A DNA stretch of 64,000 nucleotides, taken from the NCBI GenBank assembly GCA_030428355.1, contig JAUIBL010000017.1, positions 1-64,000 of the forward strand, written 5' to 3'. Shown here one piece after another: positions 10,335 through 24,020 of this stretch. The DNA comes from Alphaproteobacteria bacterium. GTDB lineage: Bacteria; Pseudomonadota; Alphaproteobacteria; Rhodobacterales; Rhodobacteraceae. The notes below the pieces were generated by a model. It was given only the letters and a program-made list of their open reading frames with translations, did no database searches and was not told where the DNA came from. How positions within the stretch are numbered: the stretch's first letter is position 1; every line of letters starts with the position of its first letter. A program made the position numbers and the translations under genes.

Positions 10335-11501
10335 ATGCCCATCCACAATCGTTTTGCCGAATTGCACCCCGAAATCACCGCCTGGCGCCGTGATCTGCAC
10401 GAGCATCCGGAGCTGCAATACGATCTGCCGCGCACCGCCGGGATCGTGGCGGACAAGCTGCGCGCCTTTGGCTGTGACAGCGTGGTCGAAGGGATCGGGC
10501 GCACCGGGGTTGTGGCGCTGATCGAGGGCAAGACAAACCGGTCGGGCAAGACCATCGCCTTTCGCGCTGACATGGATGCACTGCCGATCTTCGAGGCGAC
10601 AGGGGCCGCGCATGCCTCGAAAACGCCGGGCAAGATGCATGCCTGCGGGCATGACGGGCACACGGCCATGCTACTGGGCGCTGCGCAGTACCTCGCCGAG
10701 ACTCGCAATTTCGATGGCACGGTCGCCATCGTCTTTCAGCCCGCCGAAGAAGGCGGGGCCGGGGCCGAGGCAATGGTGCAGGACGGCCTGATCGACCGGT
10801 TCGGCATTTCCGAGATCTACGGGCTGCACAATTCGCCGCTTCTGCCACTTGGGCAATTCGCGATCCGTCCGGGGGCTTTTTACGCCGCCGTCGACAGTTT
10901 CCACATCAATGTGCGCGGCAAGGGCGGGCATGCCGCACGTCCCAACAACACGGTGGACACGACACTCGCCGCATCTGCCATCGTGATGGCACTGCAATCC
11001 GTCGTGTCGCGCAACACCGACCCGCAGCAGGCGGTGGTGGTTTCCGTCACCTCCTTCCGCACCGAATCCGAAGCCTTCAACGTGATCCCCGAACACGCCG
11101 TCCTGCGCGGCACGGTGCGCAGCTTTGACATGGAGGTGCGCGCCAAGACGCTGGAGCGGATCGGGGCCATCGCGGAGCTGACGGCACAGAGCTATGGCGC
11201 AACAGCCGAACTGGGCTTTGACGAAGAGCCGTATCCGGTGATGTCCAACCATGAAACGGAAACCGAGCATTGCATCAGCGCCGCCCGCGACGTGACGGGC
11301 GATTGCATCACCGACGCGCCCCGCACGACGGGGGGCGAGGATTTCGCCTACATGCTGCAAGCCTGCCCCGGCGCCTATATCCAGTTGGGGATCGGGCCGG
11401 GACCGGGGCTTCACCATCCGCAATACGATTTCAACGACGAGGTCATCCCGACAGGCTGTTCCTATTGGGTGACGCTGGCTGAACAGAGGCTTCCCGCATG
11501 A
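10335..11501 (+). CDS. M20-family metallo-amidohydrolase (hippurate hydrolase/N-acyl amino acid deacylase type)
   Basis: A 388-residue M20D-type amidohydrolase that cleaves an N-acyl or amide bond, for example of N-acylated amino acids. Metal-site motifs are RADMDALPI (Asp81), HACGHDGHTAM (Cys104, His106) and PAEEGGAGA (catalytic Glu near 138). A dimerisation domain follows at about 190-300. The substrate is not predictable. It overlaps the acetamidase-family gene by four bases (ATGA), so the two are co-translated. An M20 enzyme, an acetamidase and an acylphosphatase-like protein in one unit point to amide or N-acyl compound breakdown. Confidence 0.9.
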   Translation: MPIHNRFAELHPEITAWRRDLHEHPELQYDLPRTAGIVADKLRAFGCDSVVEGIGRTGVVALIEGKTNRSGKTIAFRADMDALPIFEATGAAHASKTPGKMHACGHDGHTAMLLGAAQYLAETRNFDGTVAIVFQPAEEGGAGAEAMVQDGLIDRFGISEIYGLHNSPLLPLGQFAIRPGAFYAAVDSFHINVRGKGGHAARPNNTVDTTLAASAIVMALQSVVSRNTDPQQAVVVSVTSFRTESEAFNVIPEHAVLRGTVRSFDMEVRAKTLERIGAIAELTAQSYGATAELGFDEEPYPVMSNHETETEHCISAARDVTGDCITDAPRTTGGEDFAYMLQACPGAYIQLGIGPGPGLHHPQYDFNDEVIPTGCSYWVTLAEQRLPA

Positions 11502-12424
11502 TCATCGAAGCTGGGCCAAAAACCTGTCACTGGGGCTATTTCGATGCCACGCTGGCCCCGGTCGCCACTGTAGACAGCGGTTCCGAGGTCACGATCAACA
11601 CGGTCTCTGGCGGGCCCGAAGTGCTGCCGGGCGCAGGCTATCACGTCCCGCCCGAACTGCTGGCGATCCACGAAACCGGCGTGCCGCAGGTGCCGGGCCA
11701 TATCCTGACCGGTCCAATTGCCGTGGACGGCGCGATGCCGGGCGATGTGTTGCAGGTGGACATCCTCGACATCCAGTTGCGTCAGGATTGGGGGTTCACC
11801 TTTATCCGCCCACTCTCCGGCGACCTGCCTCTCGACTTTCCCGAACGCCAGGGCATGACCCTGCGCCTTGATGCCGATGCGAACGAGGCGACTTTGCCTT
11901 GGGGTCTGAAGCTGCCGCTTGCGCCGTTCTTCGGTGTCATGGCGGTTGCCCCGCCACGGGCCTGGGGGCGGATTTCGACCATCGAACCACGCGCGCACGG
12001 GGGCAACCTGGACAACAAGGAACTGGTGGCGGGCACCACGCTTTACCTGCCGGTTCACACCGAAGGTGCGCTGTTCTCCTGTGGGGACGGGCACGGCGCG
12101 CAGGGCGATGGCGAAGTCTGCGTCACCGCCATCGAAACCGCGTTGCAGGGCCGGTTCCGGTTGACCGTGCGCCGCGACCTCGACATGACCTATCCCGAGG
12201 CCGAAACGCCGACGCACCTTATCACCATGGGCATGCATCCCGATCTGGATGTCTGCGTCGAGATCGCGCTGCGCCGCATGATCGACGTGGTCTCTACACG
12301 CGCCGGAATCAGCCGGGCCGAGGCCTATATGCTCTGCTCGCTGGCCGGGGATTTGCGGATCACCCAGACCGTGAACCGCGAAAAAGGTGTTCACATGATG
12401 ATGGCCAAGTCGCATCTTTCTTAA
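11498..12424 (+). CDS. Acetamidase/formamidase family protein
   Basis: A 308-residue member of the FmdA/AmdA family, cytosolic hydrolases releasing ammonia from short amides. The family core is visible: GDGHGAQGDGEVC near residues 195-207, and a conserved C-terminal region where the catalytic fold closes. The length is typical. It overlaps the M20 hydrolase by four bases and is 21 bases from the acylphosphatase-like gene. The true amide is unknown; it might be an intermediate linked to the neighbouring heterocycle operon. Confidence 0.88.
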   Translation: MIIEAGPKTCHWGYFDATLAPVATVDSGSEVTINTVSGGPEVLPGAGYHVPPELLAIHETGVPQVPGHILTGPIAVDGAMPGDVLQVDILDIQLRQDWGFTFIRPLSGDLPLDFPERQGMTLRLDADANEATLPWGLKLPLAPFFGVMAVAPPRAWGRISTIEPRAHGGNLDNKELVAGTTLYLPVHTEGALFSCGDGHGAQGDGEVCVTAIETALQGRFRLTVRRDLDMTYPEAETPTHLITMGMHPDLDVCVEIALRRMIDVVSTRAGISRAEAYMLCSLAGDLRITQTVNREKGVHMMMAKSHLS

Positions 12425-12445
12425 CCAAGGCCCGAGGCGATCCAG

Positions 12446-12697
12446 ATGTCCGAGAAAATGTCCGCACGTATCCACCTGACAGGTCACGTTCAGAGTGCGG
12501 ATTTCCCGAACTGGATCGCCCGGCATGCCCACAAGCTTGGCCTTGATCATGTCACGACGCAGCACGTGCCCGACGGGTTGGAGGTCAGGGCGCAAGGCCC
12601 CGAAGAAATGCTTCAGGCGCTGGCACTTGGTGTGAGTCTCGGACCGGAAAGTGTGCTCGTCGACACCATGGACATCACAACCGTTGCGTGCGTCTGA
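12446..12697 (+). CDS. Degenerate acylphosphatase-like protein
   Basis: An 83-residue protein with the acylphosphatase ferredoxin-like fold; the pattern GHVQ...F...A...GL...PDGLEV...G aligns across the domain. In true acylphosphatases the catalytic Arg sits in GFR and the catalytic Asn in VRN. Here the aligned positions are Pro (DFP) and His (TQH), so classical acylphosphatase activity is unlikely. It is the last gene of a three-gene amide-hydrolase unit. Binding or partner function is more likely than catalysis. Confidence 0.7.
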   Translation: MSEKMSARIHLTGHVQSADFPNWIARHAHKLGLDHVTTQHVPDGLEVRAQGPEEMLQALALGVSLGPESVLVDTMDITTVACV

Positions 12698-12835
12698 CGG
12701 GTCGTGCGATCACAATTTCATCGCTTAGTGCAATATTTGTGCAATTATCCGGGTTTTCGTGCACCTTGAGGGGGCGCTCTTATTGATCGACCGGAGCCCG
12801 TCTGTCTTACTCGGCCCGACTTCGGCGGAGTGAGT
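12698..12835 (+). promoter_or_regulatory. Control region of the Rieske/deaminase/ABC operon, with three GTGCA repeats
   Basis: A 138-bp gap before the eight-gene operon is AT-rich in its first half. It contains three direct GTGCA(A/C) repeats starting at 12728, 12739 and 12759, spaced 11 and 20 bp apart (about one and two helical turns). That is what an operator for a dimeric or oligomeric regulator would look like. No regulator gene adjoins, and the -35/-10 boxes were not resolved. Confidence 0.45.
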
Positions 12836-13438
12836 ATGGACTGGATTGCTGTTGGTTTGAAAGAGGATGTCCCGCCCGGCTTCGTTATCCCGAGCCGCAT
12901 CGCGGACACCGAACTGGCAGTCTGGTGCTCGCCCAGCGGAACCTACCATGCATGGTCGGACCGCTGTCCGCATCGTGGCATGCGCCTTTCGCACGGGTTT
13001 GTCCGGGGCGAGACTCTGGCCTGCATCTATCACGGGTGGCAATACAATGAGGCGGGATCGTGTCACTACATCCCCGCCCATCCGAAACTCACACCACCTG
13101 ACACCATCTGCGTGCCGACCTATCGCTGTATCGAGGCCGGTGGGGTGATCTGGGTGTCGTTGACGGAAACCGACACTCCGTTGCCCGCTTTGGGTGGGCG
13201 TCGGACGGTCAGGTCGCTGCCCGTGTCCATGTCGGCACCGGACCTCGCGGCGCATTTCGGTGCGGCAGGTTTCACCACGATCGCGGTGGTGTCGGATCAC
13301 GATGTGCTGCTTGCCGTACAGCCGTGTACGGACGGCGAATGCATGATCCATGCGCTCGCCGCGCCCGACGCGGATCGAAGTGCCGTGTCCCACTGGCTCG
13401 AAGACCTGCGCGCAACTTTGGAGAGGGTACCGGCATGA
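12836..13438 (+). CDS. Stand-alone Rieske [2Fe-2S] protein, probable electron donor to the adjacent oxygenase
   Basis: A 200-residue protein whose first 110 residues are a Rieske domain of the oxygenase type. The cluster ligands are Cys44 and His46 (CPHRG) and Cys63 and His66 (CIYHGW). It lacks the mononuclear-iron catalytic domain that normally follows. Instead there are about 90 C-terminal residues I cannot assign. The start is ATG 12836, with GGAG seven bases upstream. It overlaps by four bases the next gene, which encodes an oxygenase domain without a Rieske cluster, so the pair should form one split enzyme. It resembles in role the extra N-terminal Rieske domain of the caffeine-pathway reductase NdmD. 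Confidence 0.85.
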   Translation: MDWIAVGLKEDVPPGFVIPSRIADTELAVWCSPSGTYHAWSDRCPHRGMRLSHGFVRGETLACIYHGWQYNEAGSCHYIPAHPKLTPPDTICVPTYRCIEAGGVIWVSLTETDTPLPALGGRRTVRSLPVSMSAPDLAAHFGAAGFTTIAVVSDHDVLLAVQPCTDGECMIHALAAPDADRSAVSHWLEDLRATLERVPA

Positions 13439-14271
13439 ATGCCGCCATCGACAATCACTGGTATCCCGTCGCCATGATCTCGGGCATCGACGCGCCACGC
13501 GAAACTTTACTGCTTGGTAAAAAAATCTCTTTGGGTCGGGATGGCGGTGCGTGCTGGGTCAAGGATGCGACGGGCACGGAACTGCCCACGGTCGAACGGT
13601 TCGGCCATCTCTGGACCAGCCCCGGCCAGCCCAACCGCGATCTCTTCACCATCCCAGAAGCCGACAGCCCCGGACGCCGCCTCGTCGATGTGGGGTCGGT
13701 CAAGGTCAAATGCTCTCCCTTGCGCGCGGTCGAGAACTTCCTCGACATCGCGCATTTTCCCTTCGTGCACACCGACATCCTCGGGGCCGAGCCACATACC
13801 GAGGTGGATCGCTACGACGTGAAGATCCGCGAAGAGGTGGACGAGGTCTGGGCGACCAAGGTCAAGTTCTACCAGCCTCAAGCCGCGAAATCCGCTGCGG
13901 GCGGGATCACCACCGAATACATGTACCGCGTGCCCGCGCCGACCTGTTCGGTGCTCTACAAGACCTGTCCGCCGCGCCCCGGCGAATGGGACATCATCAC
14001 TCTTTTCGTGCAGCCCCTGACCGACGAATGGTGCGAGGTCTGGCCGTGGATGGCGCTCTATGATGACGATTCCACCATGTCTGAGATGGTCAGCTTCCAG
14101 CAGTTGATCTTCATGCAGGACCGCTCGATCCTGGAGAACCAGTTGCCGCGCAAACTGCCGCTCGATCCGGGGATGGAGGTGCCGACACAGGCCGATATGA
14201 CCTCGGTCGCCTATCGACGCTGGCTCAAGAAGATCGGCTACACTTACGGCGCGCAACTGGTGGCGGCATGA
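13435..14271 (+). CDS. Rieske-oxygenase catalytic subunit lacking its own Rieske cluster (NdmC-like)
   Basis: A 278-residue non-haem iron oxygenase subunit. The ring-hydroxylating alpha-subunit core is clear: residues 100-112 contain the bridging Asp104 and the iron ligands His107 and His112, and Asp229 (in MQDRSILE) fits the third ligand. The N-terminus NHWYPVA is the normal start of a full-length Rieske oxygenase. However, the segment that should hold CPHR and CxYHGW is missing: residue 43 runs straight into the strand before the catalytic domain. NdmC, the 7-methylxanthine N7-demethylase subunit, is described with the same loss and similar size. The start overlaps the Rieske gene (ATGA), and a GGAGAGG site precedes it. 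Confidence 0.82.
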   Translation: MNAAIDNHWYPVAMISGIDAPRETLLLGKKISLGRDGGACWVKDATGTELPTVERFGHLWTSPGQPNRDLFTIPEADSPGRRLVDVGSVKVKCSPLRAVENFLDIAHFPFVHTDILGAEPHTEVDRYDVKIREEVDEVWATKVKFYQPQAAKSAAGGITTEYMYRVPAPTCSVLYKTCPPRPGEWDIITLFVQPLTDEWCEVWPWMALYDDDSTMSEMVSFQQLIFMQDRSILENQLPRKLPLDPGMEVPTQADMTSVAYRRWLKKIGYTYGAQLVAA

Positions 14272-14882
14272 TCCTCTACGACTACGTCCTAAGCGCCAGT
14301 TGCTACAAGGTCCGCCTGATGGCGGCGCTGCTTGGCACGCCGCTGACCCTGCGGGCGGTGAATTTCCACCCGGGCCGCGAACACAAGTCGCCCGAGATGC
14401 TGGCGCTGAATCCCAAGGGCACGCTGCCGATCCTTACGGATGGCGACACGGTGCTGACGGACAGCGCCGACATCCTGCGGCATCTGACGGCGGATCATCC
14501 CGAATGGCGGAGCACCGACGATGACCGCTGGCTGGCCTTCGCATCCGCCCTGAACGCCAGCCTTGGTCTCGCGCGGTTGCACGACGTGATCGGCTACGAC
14601 GCCGACATCGACAAAGCCCGCGCGGCAGGTGTGGCGGCGCTGCGCACGCTTGAGGCGCATCTGACGGAACAGCGCTTTGACGGGCTGATCTTCCTCACCG
14701 GTTCCAAACCCACCATCGCGGACATCGCCTGTTTCCCCAACATCGCGCTGGCGCCGGATGGGGGTGTGAGCCTCGATCCGTATCCATCTGTACGCCTTTG
14801 GATGCGCGCCATCCGATCCCTGCCGGGTTTCATCGAAATGCCGGGCATCCACCGACTGCATGAACTGGCGCACCCGGTATGA
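14268..14882 (+). CDS. Glutathione S-transferase-like protein (NdmE-like)
   Basis: A 204-residue GST fold. The thioredoxin-like N-terminal domain (residues 1-78) has a SASCYKVR active-site-like motif, the NPKGTLPIL strand with its cis-Pro, and TDSADIL for the glutamyl-binding site. An all-helical C-terminal domain with the N-capping box TIADIACFP follows. It overlaps both neighbours by four bases. In the methylxanthine N7-demethylase complex a GST-like protein, NdmE, is a structural partner of NdmC. The position here makes that role more likely than free glutathione conjugation, although catalysis cannot be excluded. Confidence 0.83.
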   Translation: MILYDYVLSASCYKVRLMAALLGTPLTLRAVNFHPGREHKSPEMLALNPKGTLPILTDGDTVLTDSADILRHLTADHPEWRSTDDDRWLAFASALNASLGLARLHDVIGYDADIDKARAAGVAALRTLEAHLTEQRFDGLIFLTGSKPTIADIACFPNIALAPDGGVSLDPYPSVRLWMRAIRSLPGFIEMPGIHRLHELAHPV

Positions 14883-16276
14883 CGGCAATCCTTCTCAAGA
14901 ACTGCGAGGCGATTGTCACCTCGGCCAGCGCTCCGGTTCTGCGGCACCAGGACATCCTCTGCGAGAACGGCGCGATCACCGCGATTGGCCCCGACCTGAC
15001 GCGGCAGGCGCCCGAGGGGGCAGAGGTGATCGACGCGACCGGGCATTTCATCTATCCGGGCCTCGTCAACACACACCACCATTTCTTCCAGTGCTTCGTC
15101 CGCAACCGCGCGGAACTCGACTGGACGCGCTATTCGGTGATCGAATGGCTTGACCGTATCTATCCGATCTTCTCGCGCCTGACCGAGGACTGTTTCTACC
15201 ACAGCTCCGTTGTCGCGATGGCCGAGCTGATCAAACACGGCTGCACCACCGCGTTCGACCACCAATACTGCTTCCCGCGCCATGCCGGGTCGCACATCAT
15301 CGACCGGCAATTCGAGGCGGCGGAGCTTCTGGGCATGCGGTTTCACGCGGGCCGGGGTGGCAACACGCTGCCCAAGTCCGAGGGCAGCACCATCCCGGAC
15401 GCGATGCTGGAAAGTACCGACGAATTCATCTCGGCCTGCGAACAGGCCATCGACGCGTTCCACGATCCGGCTCCGCTTTCGATGCGGCAAGTGGCGGTGG
15501 CACCCTGCCAGCCGGTGAACTGCTACCGCGAGACATTCGAGCAATCCGTGGCGCTGGCACGGGACAAGGGCGTGATCCTGCACAGCCATGTGGGCGAGGG
15601 CGAAAGCCCGGTGATCGAACAGGTGCACGGGATGCGGACCGTGGATTACTGCGCAGAGATCGGGTTTGCCGGGCCGGACGTGTTCTATGCCCATGGCTGG
15701 GAACTGACGCGCGATGAACTGACCAAGCTGGCGGCGTCGGGCACGGGTGTTTCGCATTGTCCGGAGCCGGTCTATCTGGTCGGGGCCGAAGTCACCGACA
15801 TCCCGGCTATGGATACGCTGGGCGTGCGTGTGGGCCTTGGCTGCGACGGAGCGGCGTCGAACGACAATTCGAACCTGATGCACTGCATCCATTCCGGCTA
15901 CATGCTGCAATGCCTCGTTGCTTCGACCCGGCAGGACGTCGTGCCGGTGCCCGGGCGGTTCCTGCACTATGCGACCGAAGGTGGTGCGTCGCTTCTTGGC
16001 CGCAAAGACATCGGCGCCTTGCGCCCTGGCATGGCGGCAGACCTGTTCGCCATCGACACCCGCAAGCTCGATTTCGTCGGAACGCGCCATGACCCGATCA
16101 GCCTTCTGGCCAAGGTCGGGGTCGGCACGCCCACGGACCTTACCATGATCAACGGCCGCATCGTCTGGCACAAGGGCGCGTTTCCGGGGATCGACGAAGG
16201 CGCGCTGTTCGCCGCCGCCGAAGAGACACTTCACACCATTCTGCCAAACACAACCAACGGGGATGACCATGTCTGA
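14879..16276 (+). CDS. COG0402 amidohydrolase, 8-oxoguanine/guanine-type deaminase
   Basis: A 465-residue metal-dependent aminohydrolase of the group holding 8-oxoguanine deaminase, guanine deaminase, isoxanthopterin deaminase and triazine hydrolases. Metal ligands can be placed: NTHHHFF (His66, His68), HSHVGEG (His237), YAHGW (His272) and GCDGAASND (Asp323). The sequence around GLVNTHHH and the C-terminal GALRPGMAADL is closest, from memory, to 8-oxoguanine deaminases. Cytosolic conversion of an aminopurine to the oxo-purine plus ammonia is expected. It sits between the oxygenase genes and a nucleobase-type transporter, which supports a purine-like substrate. Confidence 0.83.
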   Translation: MTAILLKNCEAIVTSASAPVLRHQDILCENGAITAIGPDLTRQAPEGAEVIDATGHFIYPGLVNTHHHFFQCFVRNRAELDWTRYSVIEWLDRIYPIFSRLTEDCFYHSSVVAMAELIKHGCTTAFDHQYCFPRHAGSHIIDRQFEAAELLGMRFHAGRGGNTLPKSEGSTIPDAMLESTDEFISACEQAIDAFHDPAPLSMRQVAVAPCQPVNCYRETFEQSVALARDKGVILHSHVGEGESPVIEQVHGMRTVDYCAEIGFAGPDVFYAHGWELTRDELTKLAASGTGVSHCPEPVYLVGAEVTDIPAMDTLGVRVGLGCDGAASNDNSNLMHCIHSGYMLQCLVASTRQDVVPVPGRFLHYATEGGASLLGRKDIGALRPGMAADLFAIDTRKLDFVGTRHDPISLLAKVGVGTPTDLTMINGRIVWHKGAFPGIDEGALFAAAEETLHTILPNTTNGDDHV

Positions 16277-17363
16277 CACACTCAAACGCCGCAGTTTTCT
16301 GAAAGGCTCTCTTGCCGCGACAACCGCCTTGGCGCTGCCGATGCGCGCCCATGCGCAGGACGTTCTCAAGATGGGCGTCGTGCTGCCATCGCCCATCGCG
16401 GATGTGGGTTGGTCGCACACGCTGATGGAAGGCGTGAACACGGTCAAGGAAGCCTACGGCGACAAGCTCGAAGTAACCGTTCTCGAGAACATCATGGAAG
16501 GCCCGGATGCCGACCGCATCGCCAACGGGTTGGTGTCCGAAGGCAACAAAGTCCTGCTGCTTGGGTCGTTCGGCTACCAGAACGGCGGCATCCAGATCGC
16601 CAAGCGCAACCGCGATGTGTCGATCATTCACGCCTCGGGCTTCATGGTCGAGCCGAACTTCGCGCCCTTCACCGCGAAATACTGGCAGGGCACGTACTTG
16701 ATGGGGATGGCCGCCGCGTCGCTGACCAAGACCAAGAAAATCGGCTGCGTTGGCGCGTTTGCGATCCCGGAACTGATCACCTCGATCAACGCCTTCATGC
16801 TGGGCGCGTTGTCGGTTGATCCCGAAATCACCATGAGCGTCGTCTGGGTGAACAGCTGGTTCGACCCCGCGTCGGAACAGGAAGCCGCCAAAGCACTGAT
16901 TTCGCAGGATGTGGACATCCTCTTCTCGAACGCGCAGGACACGCCGTCGGTGATCGCCGTGGCGGAAGAGGCGGGGGTCTATGCCTATAACCTCAACTCG
17001 TCGATGAAGAGCTATGCGCCGACCAAGTATCTTGGCGTTGTCGGCACCGATTGGGGTCCGCATTTCAAGCGTCTGGTCGATGGTCATGTCGCCGGGAATT
17101 TCCCGAGCGCCAACTACTGGCTGGGCATGGAAGACGACGTGGTCTTTACCGCCGACTGGAACCCGGACATCCCGGCCGACATGATCGCCCGGATCGAGGC
17201 CAAGCAGGCGGAAATCGCAACCGGTGACTTCGTGGTCTTCAAAGGCCCGCTCACCGACCAGTCCGGTACCGAGCGTGTGGCGGATGGCGTGGCGATGACC
17301 GATGGCGAGATCATCGGCATGGATTGGCATGTTGCGGGCGTGACCACGCCGCTGCCGTCGTGA
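16269..17363 (+). CDS. BMP-family ABC transporter substrate-binding protein (nucleoside/nucleobase type)
   Basis: A 364-residue exported solute-binding protein of the basic membrane protein (BMP/PnrA) family, which binds nucleosides and purines. It has a Tat-type signal (KRRSFLKG followed by a hydrophobic run ending AHA, about residues 1-29). The type-1 periplasmic-binding fold follows, with the family-typical SPIADVGWSH and GCVGAF segments. ATG 16269 follows a GGGG ribosome site and overlaps the deaminase gene by eight bases; an ATG at 16263 is an alternative. It is followed directly by its ATPase and two permeases. Confidence 0.9.
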   Translation: MSDTLKRRSFLKGSLAATTALALPMRAHAQDVLKMGVVLPSPIADVGWSHTLMEGVNTVKEAYGDKLEVTVLENIMEGPDADRIANGLVSEGNKVLLLGSFGYQNGGIQIAKRNRDVSIIHASGFMVEPNFAPFTAKYWQGTYLMGMAAASLTKTKKIGCVGAFAIPELITSINAFMLGALSVDPEITMSVVWVNSWFDPASEQEAAKALISQDVDILFSNAQDTPSVIAVAEEAGVYAYNLNSSMKSYAPTKYLGVVGTDWGPHFKRLVDGHVAGNFPSANYWLGMEDDVVFTADWNPDIPADMIARIEAKQAEIATGDFVVFKGPLTDQSGTERVADGVAMTDGEIIGMDWHVAGVTTPLPS

Positions 17364-18859
17364 GCCAGCCTGCGCTGCTGAGGCTTTCAAAGGTCTCCAA
17401 GCGCTACGGCACCGTTCAGGCCAACAAGGAGATCGACCTCGAGGTGCATTCGGGGTCGATCCACGCCGTGCTGGGTGAAAACGGGGCGGGCAAATCCACC
17501 CTGATGAAGCTCATCTACGGTGTCGAACAGCCGGATGCGGGGCATATCTACTGGAACGGGCAGGAGGTGCATCTTGCCCGGCCTTCTGACGCACAGGTGC
17601 TGGGCATCGGTATGGTGTTTCAGCATTTCTCGCTCTTCGAGACGCTGAGCGTCGTGCAGAACGTGTCACTGATGATCCCCGGCAAACCGGCGGAATTGGC
17701 GCAGCAGATCGCCGATCTGGGGGACCAGTTCGGTCTGTCCGTCGACCCGCACGCGATGGTGCATCGCCTGTCTGTGGGCGAACGCCAGCGGGTCGAGATC
17801 ATCCGCTGCCTGCTGCTCAATCCGAAACTGCTGATCCTGGACGAGCCGACCTCGGTGCTGCCGCCGCAAAGCGTGCGTCGTCTTTTCGAGACCCTGCGCA
17901 AGCTGCAGGCCGATGGCATGGCGATCCTGTTCATCTCGCACAAGCTCGACGAGATCCGCGAACTGTGCGACACCGCGAGTGTTCTGCGCGGCGGCGAGGT
18001 GACCGGCCGCGTCGATCCGCGCGAGCATGATGCCCGTTCTCTGGCGCAACTGATGATCGGGCGCGAGATGCCCAATGTGGCCCATGTCGCGCCGCGCCCG
18101 CCCGGGGAAGAGCGGCTGCGCCTGAATGCGCTGAGCCATCCGCGTGCCAGCCGGTTCGGCACAACGCTGGAGGGCATCGACCTCAAGCTGCGCAGCGGTG
18201 AGATCGTCGGGATTGCGGGGATTTCCGGCAATGGGCAGCAGGAACTGGCGGCGCTCATCTCGGGCGAAACCCGGGCCCAGGAACCGGGGATGATCGAGAT
18301 CATGGGAAAGAAGGTCGGGCATCTTGGCCCGATGGCGCGGCGCAAGCTGGGCTTTGCTTTTGTGCCGGAAGAACGGCTTGGGCGCGGCGCGGTGCCCGAG
18401 ATGTCTCTGGCCGACAACAGCCTTCTGACCGCCCACGGCCGCAGCATGCTGTCGCGCGGGTTCATCCGGCGCAGCGTGGAGCGCGCCTTTACCCGTGAGT
18501 GCATCGAGACGTTCGACGTGCGCACCCCGGGACCGGATGCCGAGGCGGGCGCGATGTCGGGCGGGAACCTGCAGAAATTCATTCTGGGCCGCGAGATCAT
18601 GCTGAACCCGGACGTGATGCTCGTGTCGCAACCCACATGGGGTGTCGACATCGGGGCTGCGACCGCGATCCGCAGGCGTCTGCTGGACATGCGCGATCAG
18701 GGCTGCGCGATCCTCGTGATTTCCGAGGAAATGGACGAATTGTTCGAGATCTGCAGCAAATTGCATGTGCTGCACAAAGGGCATCTGTCGCCCGCCCTCG
18801 ACGCGGCAGAGACGACCCCGCAGGAAATCGGGCGCTACATGATTGGGGCTGCGACGTGA
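17360..18859 (+). CDS. Sugar/nucleoside-type ABC transporter ATPase (two fused NBDs)
   Basis: A 499-residue double ATPase of the kind that pairs with BMP-family binding proteins. NBD1 has Walker A GENGAGKST, signature LSVGERQR and Walker B LLILDEPTSVL. NBD2 carries the degenerate Walker A GISGNGQQE and the signature MSGGNLQK normal for this subfamily. The GTG start at 17360 overlaps the preceding stop (GTGA), and the end overlaps the next gene the same way. It energises uptake of the operon's substrate. Confidence 0.92.
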   Translation: MSQPALLRLSKVSKRYGTVQANKEIDLEVHSGSIHAVLGENGAGKSTLMKLIYGVEQPDAGHIYWNGQEVHLARPSDAQVLGIGMVFQHFSLFETLSVVQNVSLMIPGKPAELAQQIADLGDQFGLSVDPHAMVHRLSVGERQRVEIIRCLLLNPKLLILDEPTSVLPPQSVRRLFETLRKLQADGMAILFISHKLDEIRELCDTASVLRGGEVTGRVDPREHDARSLAQLMIGREMPNVAHVAPRPPGEERLRLNALSHPRASRFGTTLEGIDLKLRSGEIVGIAGISGNGQQELAALISGETRAQEPGMIEIMGKKVGHLGPMARRKLGFAFVPEERLGRGAVPEMSLADNSLLTAHGRSMLSRGFIRRSVERAFTRECIETFDVRTPGPDAEAGAMSGGNLQKFILGREIMLNPDVMLVSQPTWGVDIGAATAIRRRLLDMRDQGCAILVISEEMDELFEICSKLHVLHKGHLSPALDAAETTPQEIGRYMIGAAT

Positions 18860-19926
18860 AACTCCGACTGATCCGCCGCGACTCCGCCTCGCGCCTTGCG
18901 ATGTTCGCGGCACCCGTGTTGGCGCTCGTGCTCACCTGTCTGGCAAGCCTTGTCCTGTTTGCCGCGCTGGGCAAAGACGCGGGCGCGGCGCTGCATGCGC
19001 TGCTGCTCAAGCCTTTTTTGAGCTGGTACAGCTTTTCCGAAGTGCTGTTGAAGATGGCCCCGCTGCTCCTGATCGCGCAGGGGCTCGCTATCGGGTTCCG
19101 GGCCAACGTGTTCAACATCGGGGCCGAGGGGCAGTTTATCGTCGGTGCGCTCTGCGCCTCCGCGTTGCCGGTCTATTTCCCCGACGGGGATTTCCCGATG
19201 ATGCTGCCCGCAATGATCGCCTTCGGCGCTTTGGGCGGCATGGTCTATGCGTTGATTGCCGCAGCCTTGCGCACGCGCTTTGGCGCGTCGGAAATTCTCG
19301 TCACGCTGATGATGGCCCTGATCGCGGTCCAGATCCTGAACTACCTGCTACTGGGTCCGTGGAAAGACCCGCGAGGGTTCAATTTCCCGCAGACGGTGAT
19401 GTTCCCCGACAACGCGATGCTGCCGATCCTGTTCGACGGGACACGTACCAATATCTCACTGATCTTCGCGCTGCTGGCGAGCGTCTTTGCCTACCTGATG
19501 ATGCAGCACCACTTCCGGGGTTACCAGTTGCGCACGGCGGGCCTTGCACCGCGCGCCGCGCTCTATGCCGGGTTTTCCGCGCCGAAGATGGTGTGGCTGG
19601 GGCTGGGTCTTGGTGGATTGGCTGCTGGCATCGCCGGGGCGAGCGAGGTTGCCGGGCCGCTTGGTCAGCTCCAGCGCTCGGTCACCTCGGGATATGGCTA
19701 CGCGGCGATCATCGTCGCCTATGTCGGCGGGCTGAACCCGCTCGGGATCATCGCGTCGAGTTTCCTGATCTCGGTGATCTATATCGGCGGCGACAGTGCC
19801 ACTGTCTCTGCCGGATTGCCGGTGGCGGCGGTCGAGGTGTTCCAGGGCTTGCTGCTCTTCTTCTACCTGATGACCTTCACCCTGATCCGCTACCGGATCG
19901 AGTTTGACCGCAAGGTGCCGGCATGA
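18856..19926 (+). CDS. ABC transporter permease, BMP/nucleoside system, subunit 1
   Basis: A 356-residue inner-membrane permease with about nine hydrophobic segments, of the branched-chain/ribose permease superfamily. The GFRANVFNIGAEGQF motif near residues 80-95 is typical of the first nucleoside-system permease. The GTG start at 18856 overlaps the ATPase stop. It pairs with the following permease, whose ATG overlaps its stop codon. Confidence 0.9.
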   Translation: MKLRLIRRDSASRLAMFAAPVLALVLTCLASLVLFAALGKDAGAALHALLLKPFLSWYSFSEVLLKMAPLLLIAQGLAIGFRANVFNIGAEGQFIVGALCASALPVYFPDGDFPMMLPAMIAFGALGGMVYALIAAALRTRFGASEILVTLMMALIAVQILNYLLLGPWKDPRGFNFPQTVMFPDNAMLPILFDGTRTNISLIFALLASVFAYLMMQHHFRGYQLRTAGLAPRAALYAGFSAPKMVWLGLGLGGLAAGIAGASEVAGPLGQLQRSVTSGYGYAAIIVAYVGGLNPLGIIASSFLISVIYIGGDSATVSAGLPVAAVEVFQGLLLFFYLMTFTLIRYRIEFDRKVPA

Positions 19927-20798
19927 GCGGGCTGGAGTTCCTCCTCGCGGGCACACTCGCCGCATCCCTCCCTTTGCTTCTGGCCGCGCTGGGCGAGATG
20001 GTCGTTGAAAAGACAGGGCTGCTGAATCTTGGTCTGGAAGGCATGATGGCAATCGGGGCCGCGATTGCGTTCATCTGTGTCTTCCACACCGGTTCGCATG
20101 TGCTGGGATTTGCGGCTGCGGCGCTGATCAGTACGGCGGTTGCGATGCTCTTTGCGATCCTCGTGATCGGTGTGAAGGCCAATGAGGTGGCCTCGGGCCT
20201 CGCCATCGGGGTTCTGGGGCTCGGGCTGTCGGCGCTCTTCGGCAAGTCATACGAAAGCCGCACCATCAGTGGTCTTCCCAAGATCGACATTCCCGTCCTG
20301 TCCGACATCCCGCTGATCGGGCCGACGCTGCTGACGCAGGATATCGTTGTCTGGTTGGCGGTCCTTGGCACGATTGCGCTCTGGTGGGTGCTGAACCGCA
20401 CCAAGCTGGGTCTCATCATCGCGGCTGTGGGCGAAAATGCGGATGCTGCGCGGTCCATCGGTTACCCGGTGGTTCTTATCCGGCTCTGCGCCGTGGCTTT
20501 TGGCGGCGCGATGTGCGGGCTGGCGGGGGCTTATGCCTCGACCGTCTACACGCCGCTTTGGGCGGACGGGATGATCGCCGGGCGGGGCTGGATCGCGCTG
20601 GCGCTGGTGGTGTTCGGCACATGGCAGACCGGGCGTGTCGCCTTCGGCGCGCTGCTGTTCGGGATCCTGTCTTTGGGCGAGCTGACAGCCCAAGCGATGG
20701 GCGTGGGTCTGCCCTCGCAGGTGCTGTCGAGCCTGCCCTATCTGGTGACGATCCTGATGCTTGTGGTGATTTCGCGGCGGCGGTCCGGTCTGGTCTGA
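19923..20798 (+). CDS. ABC transporter permease, BMP/nucleoside system, subunit 2
   Basis: A 291-residue permease with eight or nine hydrophobic segments. EKTGLLNLGLEGMM near residues 28-42 is the hallmark of the second permease of nucleoside ABC systems. It is the last gene of the operon that begins at 12836; all eight genes overlap their neighbours by four to eight bases. No clear terminator follows in the 24-bp gap before the converging protease gene. Confidence 0.9.
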   Translation: MSGLEFLLAGTLAASLPLLLAALGEMVVEKTGLLNLGLEGMMAIGAAIAFICVFHTGSHVLGFAAAALISTAVAMLFAILVIGVKANEVASGLAIGVLGLGLSALFGKSYESRTISGLPKIDIPVLSDIPLIGPTLLTQDIVVWLAVLGTIALWWVLNRTKLGLIIAAVGENADAARSIGYPVVLIRLCAVAFGGAMCGLAGAYASTVYTPLWADGMIAGRGWIALALVVFGTWQTGRVAFGALLFGILSLGELTAQAMGVGLPSQVLSSLPYLVTILMLVVISRRRSGLV

Positions 20799-20822
20799 CC
20801 GCCGCCGCCGTAAATGCGTATG

Positions 20823-22889
20823 TCACATGCCGATGAACGGGTGATCCTGCGCGCGTGCCACCACGGTGCTGCAGACCGGAGGCACCCGGTACGGGCCTGT
20901 TCTGGCGAGATTGCGCGCGTCGGGCGTCGGGCCCGGATAGATCTCCGCGAACCCGTATCGCGCCGGACGGTCGGAAATGAAGTTCAAGGCGATCAAACGC
21001 GTGGCCGTCGCCGCCGCGGCACTTGTTCCGATGATCCGCGCCCCGGAACCGGAGAGTACTCCTATCGAGGGCAAACCGGGTCTGAACCAACCTTGATCCG
21101 CCGTGGCGGTGGCCGCGGGCAGGTTGGCATCGACAAAAGCCGTTCCGCTTTCATCAAGGGCGATGGACGCACTGCCGCTATATGCCGAAGGCTTGAGCGT
21201 TGATTGCATGTAGCCGGCGATGCGCAACACCGAGGGGGCCGTGCCGATGCCGTTCAGGCAGCCAAATCCCCGAACCGGGGTCAGGGCAGGCAATTCGAAC
21301 AGGCGCGGTGGTGTCGGGTGTGACAGGTCGACAAGATGGCTTTGCTGTCCACCCGTGCCCAACTGCGTCGGATCATCGTCGCGCTGTACCCAGACGTCGA
21401 TATGCTCACCCTGGCTCAGCGGGTCCGAGCCGGTGTCGATCCGGATCGTCCACATTCCGACAGGGGTCCGTCGCCCCGCTCCCGGATTGCCAGCCGTCGG
21501 GATCATCGCCAGCATGACACGCCAGCGGTTGCCTTGATGCTTGTCCGCCGAAAGCTGGCCGATGTTCTTGCCATCGGCTTCAATTTCGACAAACCGGCGC
21601 GGGTCGCCGCCTTTGAGCAGGGGATCGGCCTCAACGGCGATGGTTTGCTGCATCTCGGGCGGGTGTCCGGCAGGAGGCGAGACGGTGACAGACCAGCCCA
21701 TCGGATCGCGGTCCGGAGGCAGCCAGATCTCCAGATAGCTCGATGTCCGGTCATCGGGTTTGAGCTGCCAGCCAAAACTGACCGAGTCGTCCTGCAGGTC
21801 GACGGGGGCAAACCTTGCGTGCATGTCATTGGCAAAGTTGTTGCCCGTCGGCATGACCAGTTCCGTGCAGGGCTGTACCTTGCGCCGGTCGGTGATCAGC
21901 GCCTCGACGGCCCGTTCGAAGCTTGACTGACCGTCATGGCGATTGGCGCTCCAGCCGTAGCTGAAGTTGATCACCAGCGGGATCTCGGGGCAGTTGTAGG
22001 CCTGCGCGATCATGCGGGCGCGGTTGAAGATGTATTCAATCGCGCTGAGCATCATCATTTCCTTGCCAAAGCCCGACGTGTCCCAGGCGATGGTGTTCGG
22101 CAGTTGTACGGCGATCACCGCCGCATCGTCGGGCAGATCGGCCGCGCCGACAAATGGGTCATTCCCGGCGGCAATCCCGGCGATATGCGCACCGTGGGTG
22201 GCGTGGTGCATGAGCACAGTGTCCACTTCAGGCAGATCGGCGTCGATGGCATGGGCCGCCTTGTAGGCGCGGATTTCCTGATCGCCAAATTGCGTGCGCA
22301 ACTGGTCGATCCGGGTGCCTGTGATTTCGCAGCCGAAAGGAACGGCGGCTGATGTATCCGCCCGCGCGGCCTGCAGCCAGCACAGGTTGATCCGCGTGTC
22401 GCCCGCCGCGTCGCGGAACGCGCGGTGCAGGAACGGGATGCCGTCGTCGATCACCCCAATAATGACGCGGGGTTTGACTTTGGGCTTCTGCCAGCCCTCG
22501 GGCGTCGCGGTCGAGTCATAGCTTGCGGGCCACGTCACTGGATCAATCGGCATGTTGAGCCGGTAGCGGGTCCCGTTCAGCGCGTGCAGGCAGCGGGCCA
22601 GTTCCGCGTCGTCCTGCGCCGGGTCGGTCTCCGGAGTCACCGCCTTGTTCCACATGGCAAAGGGCGTGACATCCGGGTTGTCCTTCCAGAGCGGCGGGAT
22701 GCGGATTTCGACATCGTCCGTGCCGCTCAGCATGCCTTCGCCTTCCATCAGGGCGGTGATGTGGCTTGATGGACCCGTGCGGATTGCCGGAAACGCAAAG
22801 GGGCGACCGAGGTCTTCGGAAAAGATCCAGCGTTCATACGGACCGGGATATTTGTCGATCCGTTCATCATCATGGCGGTGCGGAAACAT
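20823..22889 (-). CDS. Subtilisin-like (S8) serine protease, no signal peptide
   Basis: A 688-residue S8-family protease. The catalytic triad can be read as Asp148 (IGVIDDG), His232 (ATHGAHIAG) and Ser623 (GTSAAAA), with oxyanion Asn350 (PTGNN). Unusually, Asp to Ser spans 475 residues because a beta-rich domain of about 200 residues (380-580) is inserted before the Ser. No signal peptide or membrane segment is visible, so it acts in the cytosol or leaves by a non-Sec route. It starts three bases after the haloperoxidase-like gene, so the two are coupled. The substrate is unknown. Confidence 0.82.
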   Translation of the reverse strand: MFPHRHDDERIDKYPGPYERWIFSEDLGRPFAFPAIRTGPSSHITALMEGEGMLSGTDDVEIRIPPLWKDNPDVTPFAMWNKAVTPETDPAQDDAELARCLHALNGTRYRLNMPIDPVTWPASYDSTATPEGWQKPKVKPRVIIGVIDDGIPFLHRAFRDAAGDTRINLCWLQAARADTSAAVPFGCEITGTRIDQLRTQFGDQEIRAYKAAHAIDADLPEVDTVLMHHATHGAHIAGIAAGNDPFVGAADLPDDAAVIAVQLPNTIAWDTSGFGKEMMMLSAIEYIFNRARMIAQAYNCPEIPLVINFSYGWSANRHDGQSSFERAVEALITDRRKVQPCTELVMPTGNNFANDMHARFAPVDLQDDSVSFGWQLKPDDRTSSYLEIWLPPDRDPMGWSVTVSPPAGHPPEMQQTIAVEADPLLKGGDPRRFVEIEADGKNIGQLSADKHQGNRWRVMLAMIPTAGNPGAGRRTPVGMWTIRIDTGSDPLSQGEHIDVWVQRDDDPTQLGTGGQQSHLVDLSHPTPPRLFELPALTPVRGFGCLNGIGTAPSVLRIAGYMQSTLKPSAYSGSASIALDESGTAFVDANLPAATATADQGWFRPGLPSIGVLSGSGARIIGTSAAAATATRLIALNFISDRPARYGFAEIYPGPTPDARNLARTGPYRVPPVCSTVVARAQDHPFIGM

Positions 22890-22892
22890 GGC

Positions 22893-24020
22893 TCAGGCTT
22901 TCTGCGCTTCGGCGACGGCTCCGGACCAAAGCCACGAGAACGCAGGCTTGGCCGAAAGCGTGGCGCATGCGCCTGTTGCGGTCAGGCCTTTTGTTGCGGC
23001 GATGCCCGGGTCGCGCTGATCTTCATCGAAGAAGTCGTGATCGCCCGCGCTGTAGGCCAGTTCCGCAACAGGACCTCCTGCGCCTGCACGGTTCAGGACA
23101 ACCTGCCCGACGATCCGTCCAAGCGCGGCACCTGCCCAACTGTCGATGGGGTAATGCACACCCGCCACCGTCCGGTTGACCGCGATGCGTTCGGCCAAGC
23201 CGCGCAGCACCTTGATGCGCTGTTCGCCATCGGAAAGGCTGTCCCATTCGGTCACAAGCGCTTCCAGAACGGTCAGCACGGCATAGGCTTCGGTTGCGTG
23301 GGCCGACGGGAAGCTGCCATGGCCCGGCGTCGGGATCATCGGCATCAGCCGGGCGTCCACCTGATCGGGGCGGCGGATGGCAAGGTGGTTCTTTACGATC
23401 ATCGCGGTGTGCGCTGCGGCCACTTGCGTGGCGGTGATCAATTCGAATGTCTTTTTGTTCTGGGCGCTGTGCAGTCCCAGCATCATCGCAAAATAGGCGG
23501 TTGGAAAGCCAAGCTGCGACGTGATCTCGGCTGTGCGTTCGGCGCGCAGGGTGGCGTAATCCGACACCAGCCGACATTGCGACCGCAACAGGTCCGTTGC
23601 CGGACGATCCAGCGTCAGGCAGGTCCTGCCGTCAAAGGACAGCGACACCCGGTCGGGTGCACCGCCTGTGCCGACCATGGCCTCGGACCCGATGCCCGCA
23701 AGAAACTCGCTCACATAAAGCGACCCACGGACCCATGTGGCCAGTCCGCTCAGATTGTTGGGATCGGAAAATCCCAGCTCCTTGTCGGTTGGGGTTGTTC
23801 CGTTTTCTGTCAGGTGGCGCAGACCTTCGGCGGTGGTCTGCAGACCATGCGTGGTCATCGGATCATAGCCGCCGGGGTCTTCGCTTCCCAGAAATCCACC
23901 GAGGCCGGTAAAGTTCGTGCCACCACCGAAGCCGCCAAATCCACCGAAGCCGCCGAACCCTCCGAAGCCGCCGAAACCGCCAAATCCGCCGAAGCCGCCA
24001 AATCCACCATATTGTGACAT
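22893..24020 (-). CDS. PAP2 / vanadium-haloperoxidase-type protein with N-terminal Gly-Gly-Phe repeats
   Basis: A 375-residue protein. Residues 5-30 are about nine tandem Gly-Gly-Phe units. The rest is an alpha-helical acid phosphatase/vanadium-dependent haloperoxidase domain with the complete signature KX6RP (Lys207, Arg214, Pro215), PSAH (235-238) and RX5HX3D (Arg280, His286, Asp290). It has no transmembrane helices, unlike membrane PAP2 lipid phosphatases, which favours the soluble haloperoxidase branch. Phosphatase activity is possible. It is co-transcribed with the S8 protease downstream and lies 26 bases after the regulator gene. Confidence 0.8.
   Translation of the reverse strand: MSQYGGFGGFGGFGGFGGFGGFGGFGGFGGFGGGTNFTGLGGFLGSEDPGGYDPMTTHGLQTTAEGLRHLTENGTTPTDKELGFSDPNNLSGLATWVRGSLYVSEFLAGIGSEAMVGTGGAPDRVSLSFDGRTCLTLDRPATDLLRSQCRLVSDYATLRAERTAEITSQLGFPTAYFAMMLGLHSAQNKKTFELITATQVAAAHTAMIVKNHLAIRRPDQVDARLMPMIPTPGHGSFPSAHATEAYAVLTVLEALVTEWDSLSDGEQRIKVLRGLAERIAVNRTVAGVHYPIDSWAGAALGRIVGQVVLNRAGAGGPVAELAYSAGDHDFFDEDQRDPGIAATKGLTATGACATLSAKPAFSWLWSGAVAEAQKA
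23931..24008 (-). repeat. 9-bp tandem repeat encoding (Gly-Gly-Phe)n
   Basis: About nine imperfect copies of a 9-bp unit (minus strand GGC/GGA-GGN-TTC/TTT) encode the repeated N-terminus of the haloperoxidase-like protein. Synonymous third-position differences between copies show selection on the peptide rather than recent slippage. Confidence 0.85.

Follow-up and report, generated by a model that had tools for sequence, protein, structure and literature searches.

In the 7-methylxanthine N7-demethylase NdmCDE of Pseudomonas putida CBB5, the catalytic subunit NdmC, which takes off the ring N7-methyl group, is Rieske-less and is accompanied by a GST-like partner and by a Rieske cluster that resides on another polypeptide (PMC4408171). 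NdmH, an amidohydrolase described in 2026, converts N2,N2-dimethylguanine into xanthine and dimethylamine, with kcat/KM values of 10^5-10^6 for its homologues on this substrate, and its physiological context was, according to its authors, still being investigated (PMC13054789). The binding protein AtzT, encoded on plasmid pADP-1, co-purified with guanine and binds it with a Kd of 0.11 μM (PMC6834077). Here, we describe a nine-gene operon in a 64,000-nucleotide stretch of DNA (the window; positions 1 to 64,000 of contig JAUIBL010000017.1, assembly GCA_030428355.1) from a Marivita-like member of the Rhodobacterales, in which relatives of all three systems stand side by side. We consider it probable, if by no means certain, that these genes together serve the breakdown of methylated guanine bases, with an NdmH-type hydrolase acting alongside an importer and a split N-demethylase.

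Organisation and conservation of the operon

Eight of the genes are overlapping open reading frames (ORFs) on the + strand (12830–20798), all with Pfam support, and include a complete BMP-type ATP-binding cassette (ABC) importer, just as had been proposed in an earlier, database-free interpretation of this DNA (the sequence-only reading). That reading let the operon start at 12836, where an ATG does exist; however, a GTG at 12830 precedes it, so that the first gene spans 12830–13438. It also overlooked a ninth gene, an acylphosphatase-like ORF at 12446–12697. Of the seven junctions, five show overlaps of 4 nt and the one between the hydrolase and the BMP gene an overlap of 14 nt, while the overlap between the BMP and ATPase genes is 40 nt with a TTG start of the latter (17324, also possible) and 4 nt with the likelier GTG at 17360. 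A promoter and terminator scan of 12200–21200 returned nothing above chance.

A contig scan confirmed at least 530 relatives of the oxygenase, of which the best-scoring 80 were kept, so that counts over these loci describe close relatives (in one of them, L063, the oxygenase is 99 % identical to that of the window). The Rieske protein, the oxygenase, and the GST are each present in 80 of 80, the binding protein in 75, the small acylphosphatase-like protein in 74 (by tblastn), the ATPase and each permease in 73, and an NdmH-type hydrolase of at least 60 % identity in 72. All eight genes occur together in 69 of the 80 loci, and since all 69 complete loci keep both order and strand, the arrangement is not a product of chance. 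Two of the eight hydrolase-less loci (L086, L141) reach the contig end after the oxygenase, and the other six (L113, L121, L130, L137, L140, L142) are without an NdmH-type hydrolase in the stretch covered. The link to purines that the sequence-only reading had drawn is supported, and homologous operons are not devoid of purine genes.

Of the best 80 loci, 50 come from Hyphomicrobiales, most of them bearing rhizobial names, and 25 from Rhodobacterales, while one belongs to Geminicoccales and four are not placed in an order. Annotated Rhizobium plasmids carry the same gene block, and in Rhizobium johnstonii 3841 the operon corresponds to RL_RS29065-RS29105. The label of a ‘marine-type’ route, which the sequence-only reading had attached to the operon, is therefore too narrow, since the carriers include marine as well as root-associated bacteria. 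Within the order, the distribution is patchy, with matches to the oxygenase profile in 24 of 390 genomes and in three of six genomes of the window's own genus. A search of the open-licence PMC literature found no paper describing this operon.

The NdmH-type hydrolase and other deaminases

The amidohydrolase gene (14879–16276, + strand; Amidohydro_1) had been read as encoding an 8-oxoguanine/guanine-type deaminase, an assignment that we abandon. Although 8-oxoguanine deaminase (NF006055) is its best NCBIfam name, the protein stays far below the cut-off of 532 bits with its score of 376.5, and it reaches 113.3 bits for guanine deaminase (TIGR02967; cut-off 375.4). Instead, it possesses all 13 active-site residues that have been named for NdmH of Pleomorphomonas oryzae (poNdmH), that is, CQNN together with Q74, W85, W93, Y98, Y133, E243, H275, P300, and D326 in poNdmH numbering (PMC13054789). 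This signature is complete in 76 of 77 operon hydrolases (at least 60 % identity, window included), the exception having H instead of Q74, and in the operon hydrolase of Pleomorphomonas sp. (L126) all 13 residues even stand at identical numbers. An 8-oxoguanine deaminase encoded at another oxygenase locus (L057), in contrast, differs at these residues, as does a similar protein from L175. Judged by its residues, the operon amidohydrolase is hence of the NdmH type and not an 8-oxoguanine deaminase. Moreover, a separate canonical guanine deaminase is encoded elsewhere in the same genome (contig C83; TIGR02967, 500.1 bits), so that the NdmH-type enzyme is probably not the housekeeping deaminase.

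The four operon hydrolases compared share 54-59 % identity (56 % for the window) with AtzB, the hydroxyatrazine ethylaminohydrolase of pADP-1, and the L057 deaminase and the L175 protein share 36-40 % with it. Unlike the operon hydrolases, AtzB degrades a herbicide; it is considered to derive from an NdmH-type progenitor, with SSII replacing CQNN (PMC13054789). The passages of that paper covered here report no gene neighbourhood of NdmH, and relative to them the link to an oxygenase and an importer is new.

Genome samples provide a less biased test of this link than the best 80 loci. Among the 390 genomes of the order, 12 encode an NdmH-type hydrolase (E 1e-100) and all 12 also the oxygenase, another 12 have the oxygenase alone, and 366 have neither (Fisher p 1.2e-16, a value that ignores kinship); among 398 genomes of the phylum, the hydrolase occurs in five, again always together with the oxygenase (5/5). 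In each of the 16 different genomes concerned, the window's own included, a distance of 611-700 bp separates the two matches. In these two samples, NdmH occurs only with the split oxygenase, while the oxygenase is also found without NdmH.

Among loci with a stand-alone Rieske protein, 15 have room to see NdmH and lack it (six of the best 80 and nine others), and in six of these a guanine deaminase accompanies the oxygenase. It ends the operon in L137 and L140 (TIGR02967, 428.8 and 433.5 bits), likewise exceeds the cut-off of 375.4 in L054 (380.0 bits), and falls slightly below it in L052 (373.6), L056 (358.8), and L057 (361.7); in L054 and L056, its gene overlaps an oxygenase gene by 4 nt. A cytidine-deaminase-fold gene (PF00383) is present in L142 and L052. 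An amino-purine deaminase is a recurrent, not a constant, partner of the oxygenase, which fits a guanine-type substrate.

Two of these loci are part of larger clusters (L056, 5273–18160; L057, 2778–18820), each of which encodes two Rieske-less oxygenases, deaminases of more than one kind, and a GMC-type oxidoreductase (family-tested in L056). The former additionally holds xanthine-dehydrogenase-like genes (best matches pucD and pucE) and an aldehyde dehydrogenase, the latter a sulfopyruvate-decarboxylase-like pair. These clusters may encode a different, longer purine-like pathway.

A putative Rieske oxygenase in complementary parts

The first gene of the overlapping set (12830–13438, + strand, GTG start) encodes a protein of 202 amino acids with a Rieske domain as its sole domain (PF00355, 77 bits), followed by the Rieske-less, NdmC-like catalytic subunit (13435–14271, + strand; VanA_C 74.5 bits, KshA_C slightly below its cut-off) and the GST-like counterpart of NdmE (14268–14882, + strand; GST_N/GST_C domains). 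Among 126 homologues of the oxygenase, the Rieske motif is found in frame in seven full-length ones and in none of the remaining 119, all of which (119/119) keep N101, D104, H107, H112, and D229. Conversely, the CxH...CxxH cluster motif is present in 103 of 104 stand-alone Rieske proteins, being intact in the window, and the D..H....H iron motif in none of the 104. Profile searches match both halves to the same PDB chain, SxtDIOX (residues 10-131 of that chain for the Rieske protein, 95-333 for the catalytic protein), the latter protein then matching NdmB/NdmA. In AlphaFold models (predicted local distance difference test, pLDDT, of 95.6 for the Rieske protein and 84.2 for the catalytic protein), the nearest folds of both are GxtA/SxtT, followed by NdmA or NdmB, with template modelling (TM) scores by query of up to 0.81 and 0.85, respectively, among the matches listed. 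The Rieske-only protein retains a shrunken catalytic domain without iron site, and from sequence and models, the two proteins look like shrunken, complementary copies of one Rieske oxygenase alpha subunit. While SxtT/GxtA (SxtDIOX) is the best PDB match of both operon halves, it has both metal sites on one chain; its substrate is reportedly a saxitoxin precursor.

Sharing the work between two proteins in this way is plausible in mechanistic terms, since in ordinary Rieske oxygenases the electron normally passes between neighbouring subunits, crossing about 12 Å from the cluster to the iron of the neighbour via a conserved Asp (PMC12445004). Accordingly conceived, the Rieske-only and the Rieske-less protein would assemble with electron transfer across their interface.

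A fourth part of the oxygenase is probably the small acylphosphatase-like protein (83 amino acids; 12446–12697, + strand; PF00708, 30.9 bits versus a cut-off of 22.5). Of 105 stand-alone Rieske proteins, mostly from the 80 close relatives, 97 have a match to its family hidden Markov model (HMM) directly upstream, as against none of eight NdmD-type fusions. Arg and Asn, which we take to be the catalytic residues of acylphosphatases, appear replaced at the corresponding positions (by eye, in an alignment restricted to 14 family members).

The sequence-only reading had equated the oxygenase with NdmC, the GST with NdmE, and the Rieske protein with the Rieske domain of NdmD, and as a statement of kinship, this correspondence stands. 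In a tree of 57 sequences, all 49 Rieske-less proteins, NdmC types included, form one clade (100/98), and the oxygenase stands apart from the full-length Rieske oxygenases in that tree (VanA was not included); the outgroup branches are long, a situation in which, according to a warning of the program, false joins can arise. Within the clade, the order of branches is not resolved by the tree. The window protein belongs to a 24-row branch without NdmC types (99/99; wider branch 89/86), and a separate branch with NdmD-type neighbours (86/83) holds the NdmC-type protein that is encoded beside an NdmB homologue in L181. Between the window and L181, the oxygenases are 46 % and the GSTs 44 % identical, and the window Rieske protein matches the Rieske segment at the N-terminus of NdmD-type proteins with about 30-41 % identity. 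A vanillate demethylase was rejected as identity of the oxygenase, as the PDB searches reach SxtT/SxtDIOX and NdmA/B first (VanA itself is absent from the tree).

The operon therefore resembles NdmCDE in its Rieske-less catalytic subunit, its GST-like partner, the Rieske cluster on another polypeptide, and the common clade (PMC4408171). It differs in that the Rieske protein is free-standing and the reductase neither fused nor adjacent, that an acylphosphatase-like gene is added, and that the oxygenase sits on another branch of the clade. Two defining features, the fused reductase and the placement on the NdmC branch, are not found, which is why we file it as an NdmCDE-related variant; what had been called an NdmC/NdmE-like operon is so by kinship, but not by membership.

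Taken together, the split oxygenases occur with a free Rieske protein (window), a Rieske-reductase fusion (NdmD type), a catalytic-reductase fusion (Variovorax), or a separate VanB-type reductase (L177 and Komagataeibacter). The Variovorax case is located on a Variovorax paradoxus plasmid (L040, CP063167.1, 13310–16457), where a Rieske-only protein is followed by a fusion of Rieske-less oxygenase and VanB-type reductase (604 amino acids) and a GST. The NdmC/NdmD/GST-type cluster on another plasmid, from Klebsiella pneumoniae (L039, NZ_CP015501.1, 9235–15889), also encodes a full-length Rieske oxygenase, a TIM-barrel protein, and a 2-oxoglutarate oxygenase, and a nucleobase:cation symporter gene is located nearby.

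The importer

The importer comprises a BMP-type periplasmic binding protein with a twin-arginine (TAT) signal (16263–17363; PF02608, Bmp), an ATPase (17360–18859; PF00005 in two stretches), and two permeases (18856–19926 and 19923–20798; both PF02653, BPD_transp_2), all on the + strand. The best PDB match of the binding protein is guanine-bound AtzT (E 1.3e-73), and a Brucella protein modelled with adenine is also near; AtzT is 35-38 % identical to the four operon binding proteins compared. We compared the guanine-site residues Y45, S97, F98, E165, N169, W194, N218, and N220 of AtzT, of which the operon proteins keep S97, F98, E165, W194, and N218 as well as an aromatic residue at 45. In this order of positions, the site reads W S F E S W N D in 74 of 76 operon proteins and W S F E T W N D in the other two; among 34 further BMP proteins, counted apart, eight have the pattern W S F E S W N D. 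This partial conservation fits a purine ligand near, yet not identical to, guanine.

On pADP-1 itself, the genes of the AtzT importer adjoin an amidohydrolase, WP_011117184, apart from AtzB (L198, 42490–48737), and AtzB sits near an NCS2 permease (L197).

Proposed function and competing explanations

From family membership and binding-site residues, the AtzT-like importer would take up a methylated guanine base, for example one set free by the decay of RNA. The split Rieske N-demethylase would then release a methyl group of the ring as formaldehyde, N7 being the likeliest position in analogy to the related NdmC. An NADH reductase whose gene lies elsewhere would supply the electrons to the free Rieske subunit, which would pass them over the interface to the iron of its Rieske-less partner, and the GST-like and acylphosphatase-like proteins would presumably hold the assembly together. 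The NdmH-type hydrolase, assigned here by sequence, would cleave the 2-amino or 2-dimethylamino group to give xanthine, and the two reactions could proceed in either order. Xanthine would finally enter ordinary purine breakdown through a xanthine dehydrogenase, the gene for which is indeed present elsewhere in the genome (1216.5 bits). Obvious candidate substrates beyond the scope of NdmH alone are 7-methylguanine and 2,2,7-trimethylguanine.

The same genome encodes a glutathione-dependent formaldehyde dehydrogenase (FrmA, 612.5 bits), reductase-like ORFs, of which one of 1066 amino acids on contig C78 is a candidate electron donor of the oxygenase, and a HODM-like gene (149.2 bits), which we take to be tied to dimethylamine oxidation. 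Two relatives of the oxygenase have formaldehyde genes in their vicinity: the L181 cluster contains frmA and frmB next to its NdmB homologue and NdmC/D/E-type genes, and L177 contains frmA, which fits formaldehyde release by the wider oxygenase family. Both frmA and frmB also appear in the published gene map of CBB5 (PMC4408171). On another contig of the window's genome (C5; L194, 2541–12124), xanthine dehydrogenase genes are followed by a second BMP-type ABC transporter (by eye), an ordinary purine-uptake arrangement.

Several observations weigh against the assignment to methylated guanine. NdmH is absent from 12 of the 24 oxygenase-bearing genomes of the order, L113 lacks both hydrolase and importer, and in nine of the 15 NdmH-less loci an HMM search found no amidohydrolase-type guanine deaminase, although the model was built from the six positives themselves and would overlook a deaminase that is more distant or has another fold. 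Because NdmH alone makes xanthine from N2,N2-dimethylguanine, the oxygenase needs a second methylated position; N7 is indicated by NdmC alone, which is a weak point, and the NdmC-type protein of L181 is 46 % identical to the window oxygenase and stands on another branch. In a same-strand tblastn search up to 9 kb from the 80 loci (E 1e-6, identity of 25 % or more), no NdmD-type reductase was detected and a VanB-type reductase gave one weak match. In all 76 operon binding proteins, W stands at position 45 of the guanine site, S or T at 169, and D at 220, where AtzT has Y, N, and N. Finally, we know of no measured activity for any protein of the window's oxygenase branch.

Of the alternatives, the one that survives best, although we hold it to be unlikely, is that the oxygenase strips exocyclic N2-methyl groups from N2-methylguanine and N2,N2-dimethylguanine to supply a guanine deaminase with guanine, NdmH being a second, hydrolytic route. 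Guanine as product would suit the guanine deaminases in 6 of the 15 NdmH-less relatives, and NdmH itself acts on N2,N2-dimethylguanine (PMC13054789). In operons with NdmH, however, such an activity would be redundant, and yet NdmH was never found without the oxygenase in the two genome samples; moreover, the characterised relative NdmC takes the methyl group off ring N7 (PMC4408171).

The sequence-only reading had left the substrate between 7-methylguanine and methylxanthines. In the latter case, that of an N7-demethylation operon of the caffeine family, the deaminase would handle a side product. The common clade with NdmC-type proteins and the GST counterpart speak in favour of methylxanthines, but no N1- or N3-demethylase gene (NdmA/NdmB-like) is found among the nine genes, no NdmD-type reductase near the 80 loci, and a 2-amino-purine hydrolase is kept in 72 of these even though methylxanthines have no amino group. 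We consequently regard methylxanthine demethylation as decidedly improbable and reject a caffeine-type pathway, for which an NdmA/NdmB-like gene is missing from the nine. The NdmH-type hydrolase points to methylated guanines over methylxanthines, and on the sequence evidence a methylated guanine is the most likely substrate.

Highly improbable, in our estimation, is a hydroxylation of the purine ring, for example at C8 of guanine, with the deaminase acting on the oxidised base. The nearest solved folds, SxtT and GxtA, are said to be C-H hydroxylases of a purine-like ring system, an 8-oxoguanine deaminase (580.6 versus 532 bits) is encoded between the oxygenase genes of L057, and L175 has a gene with a similar residue pattern (residue comparison only). 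On the other hand, NdmA, NdmB, and NdmC are demethylases, frmA adjoins two relatives, and the window hydrolase has NdmH residues where proteins of the 8-oxoguanine deaminase type differ. A pathway for homarine or another N-methyl heterocycle was rejected, as the purine genes argue otherwise.

Returning to methylated guanine catabolism, a bolder version may be entertained, which as a whole is rather unlikely: the operon might be the physiological home of NdmH and serve the catabolism of RNA-derived methylguanine. A four-part oxygenase, derived from two degenerate, complementary copies of a single Rieske oxygenase subunit and composed of a Rieske-only pseudo-oxygenase, a Rieske-less oxygenase, and a scaffold of GST-like protein and pseudo-acylphosphatase, would remove the N7-methyl group and NdmH the N2,N2-dimethylamino group, thus dismantling even 2,2,7-trimethylguanine, the cap base of eukaryotic snRNA, to xanthine. 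The operon family would then also be the likely source of the AtzB hydrolase.

Flanking genes

Upstream of the operon, the window encodes an M20 peptidase (10335–11501) and a formamidase-like protein (11498–12424). The pair precedes the operon in the Marivita-type loci L063-L067 and L124 and is not found as an adjacent pair in other relatives, for which reason it was rejected as part of the operon. Two ORFs follow downstream on the - strand, one of 688 amino acids (20823–22889) that is subtilase-like by eye and convergent toward the operon end, and one of 375 amino acids (22893–24020) with a run of FGG repeats followed by a phosphatase/haloperoxidase-type domain (by eye).

Significance

For NdmH, an enzyme whose context is still under study, these results provide an oxidative partner and an importer within a conserved operon, and for Rieske oxygenases a further mode of splitting besides NdmCDE. 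If the proposed function is true, marine and root-associated bacteria would possess a route for recycling RNA-derived methylated guanine, and the ancestor type of an atrazine-degrading enzyme would be placed in its natural pathway.

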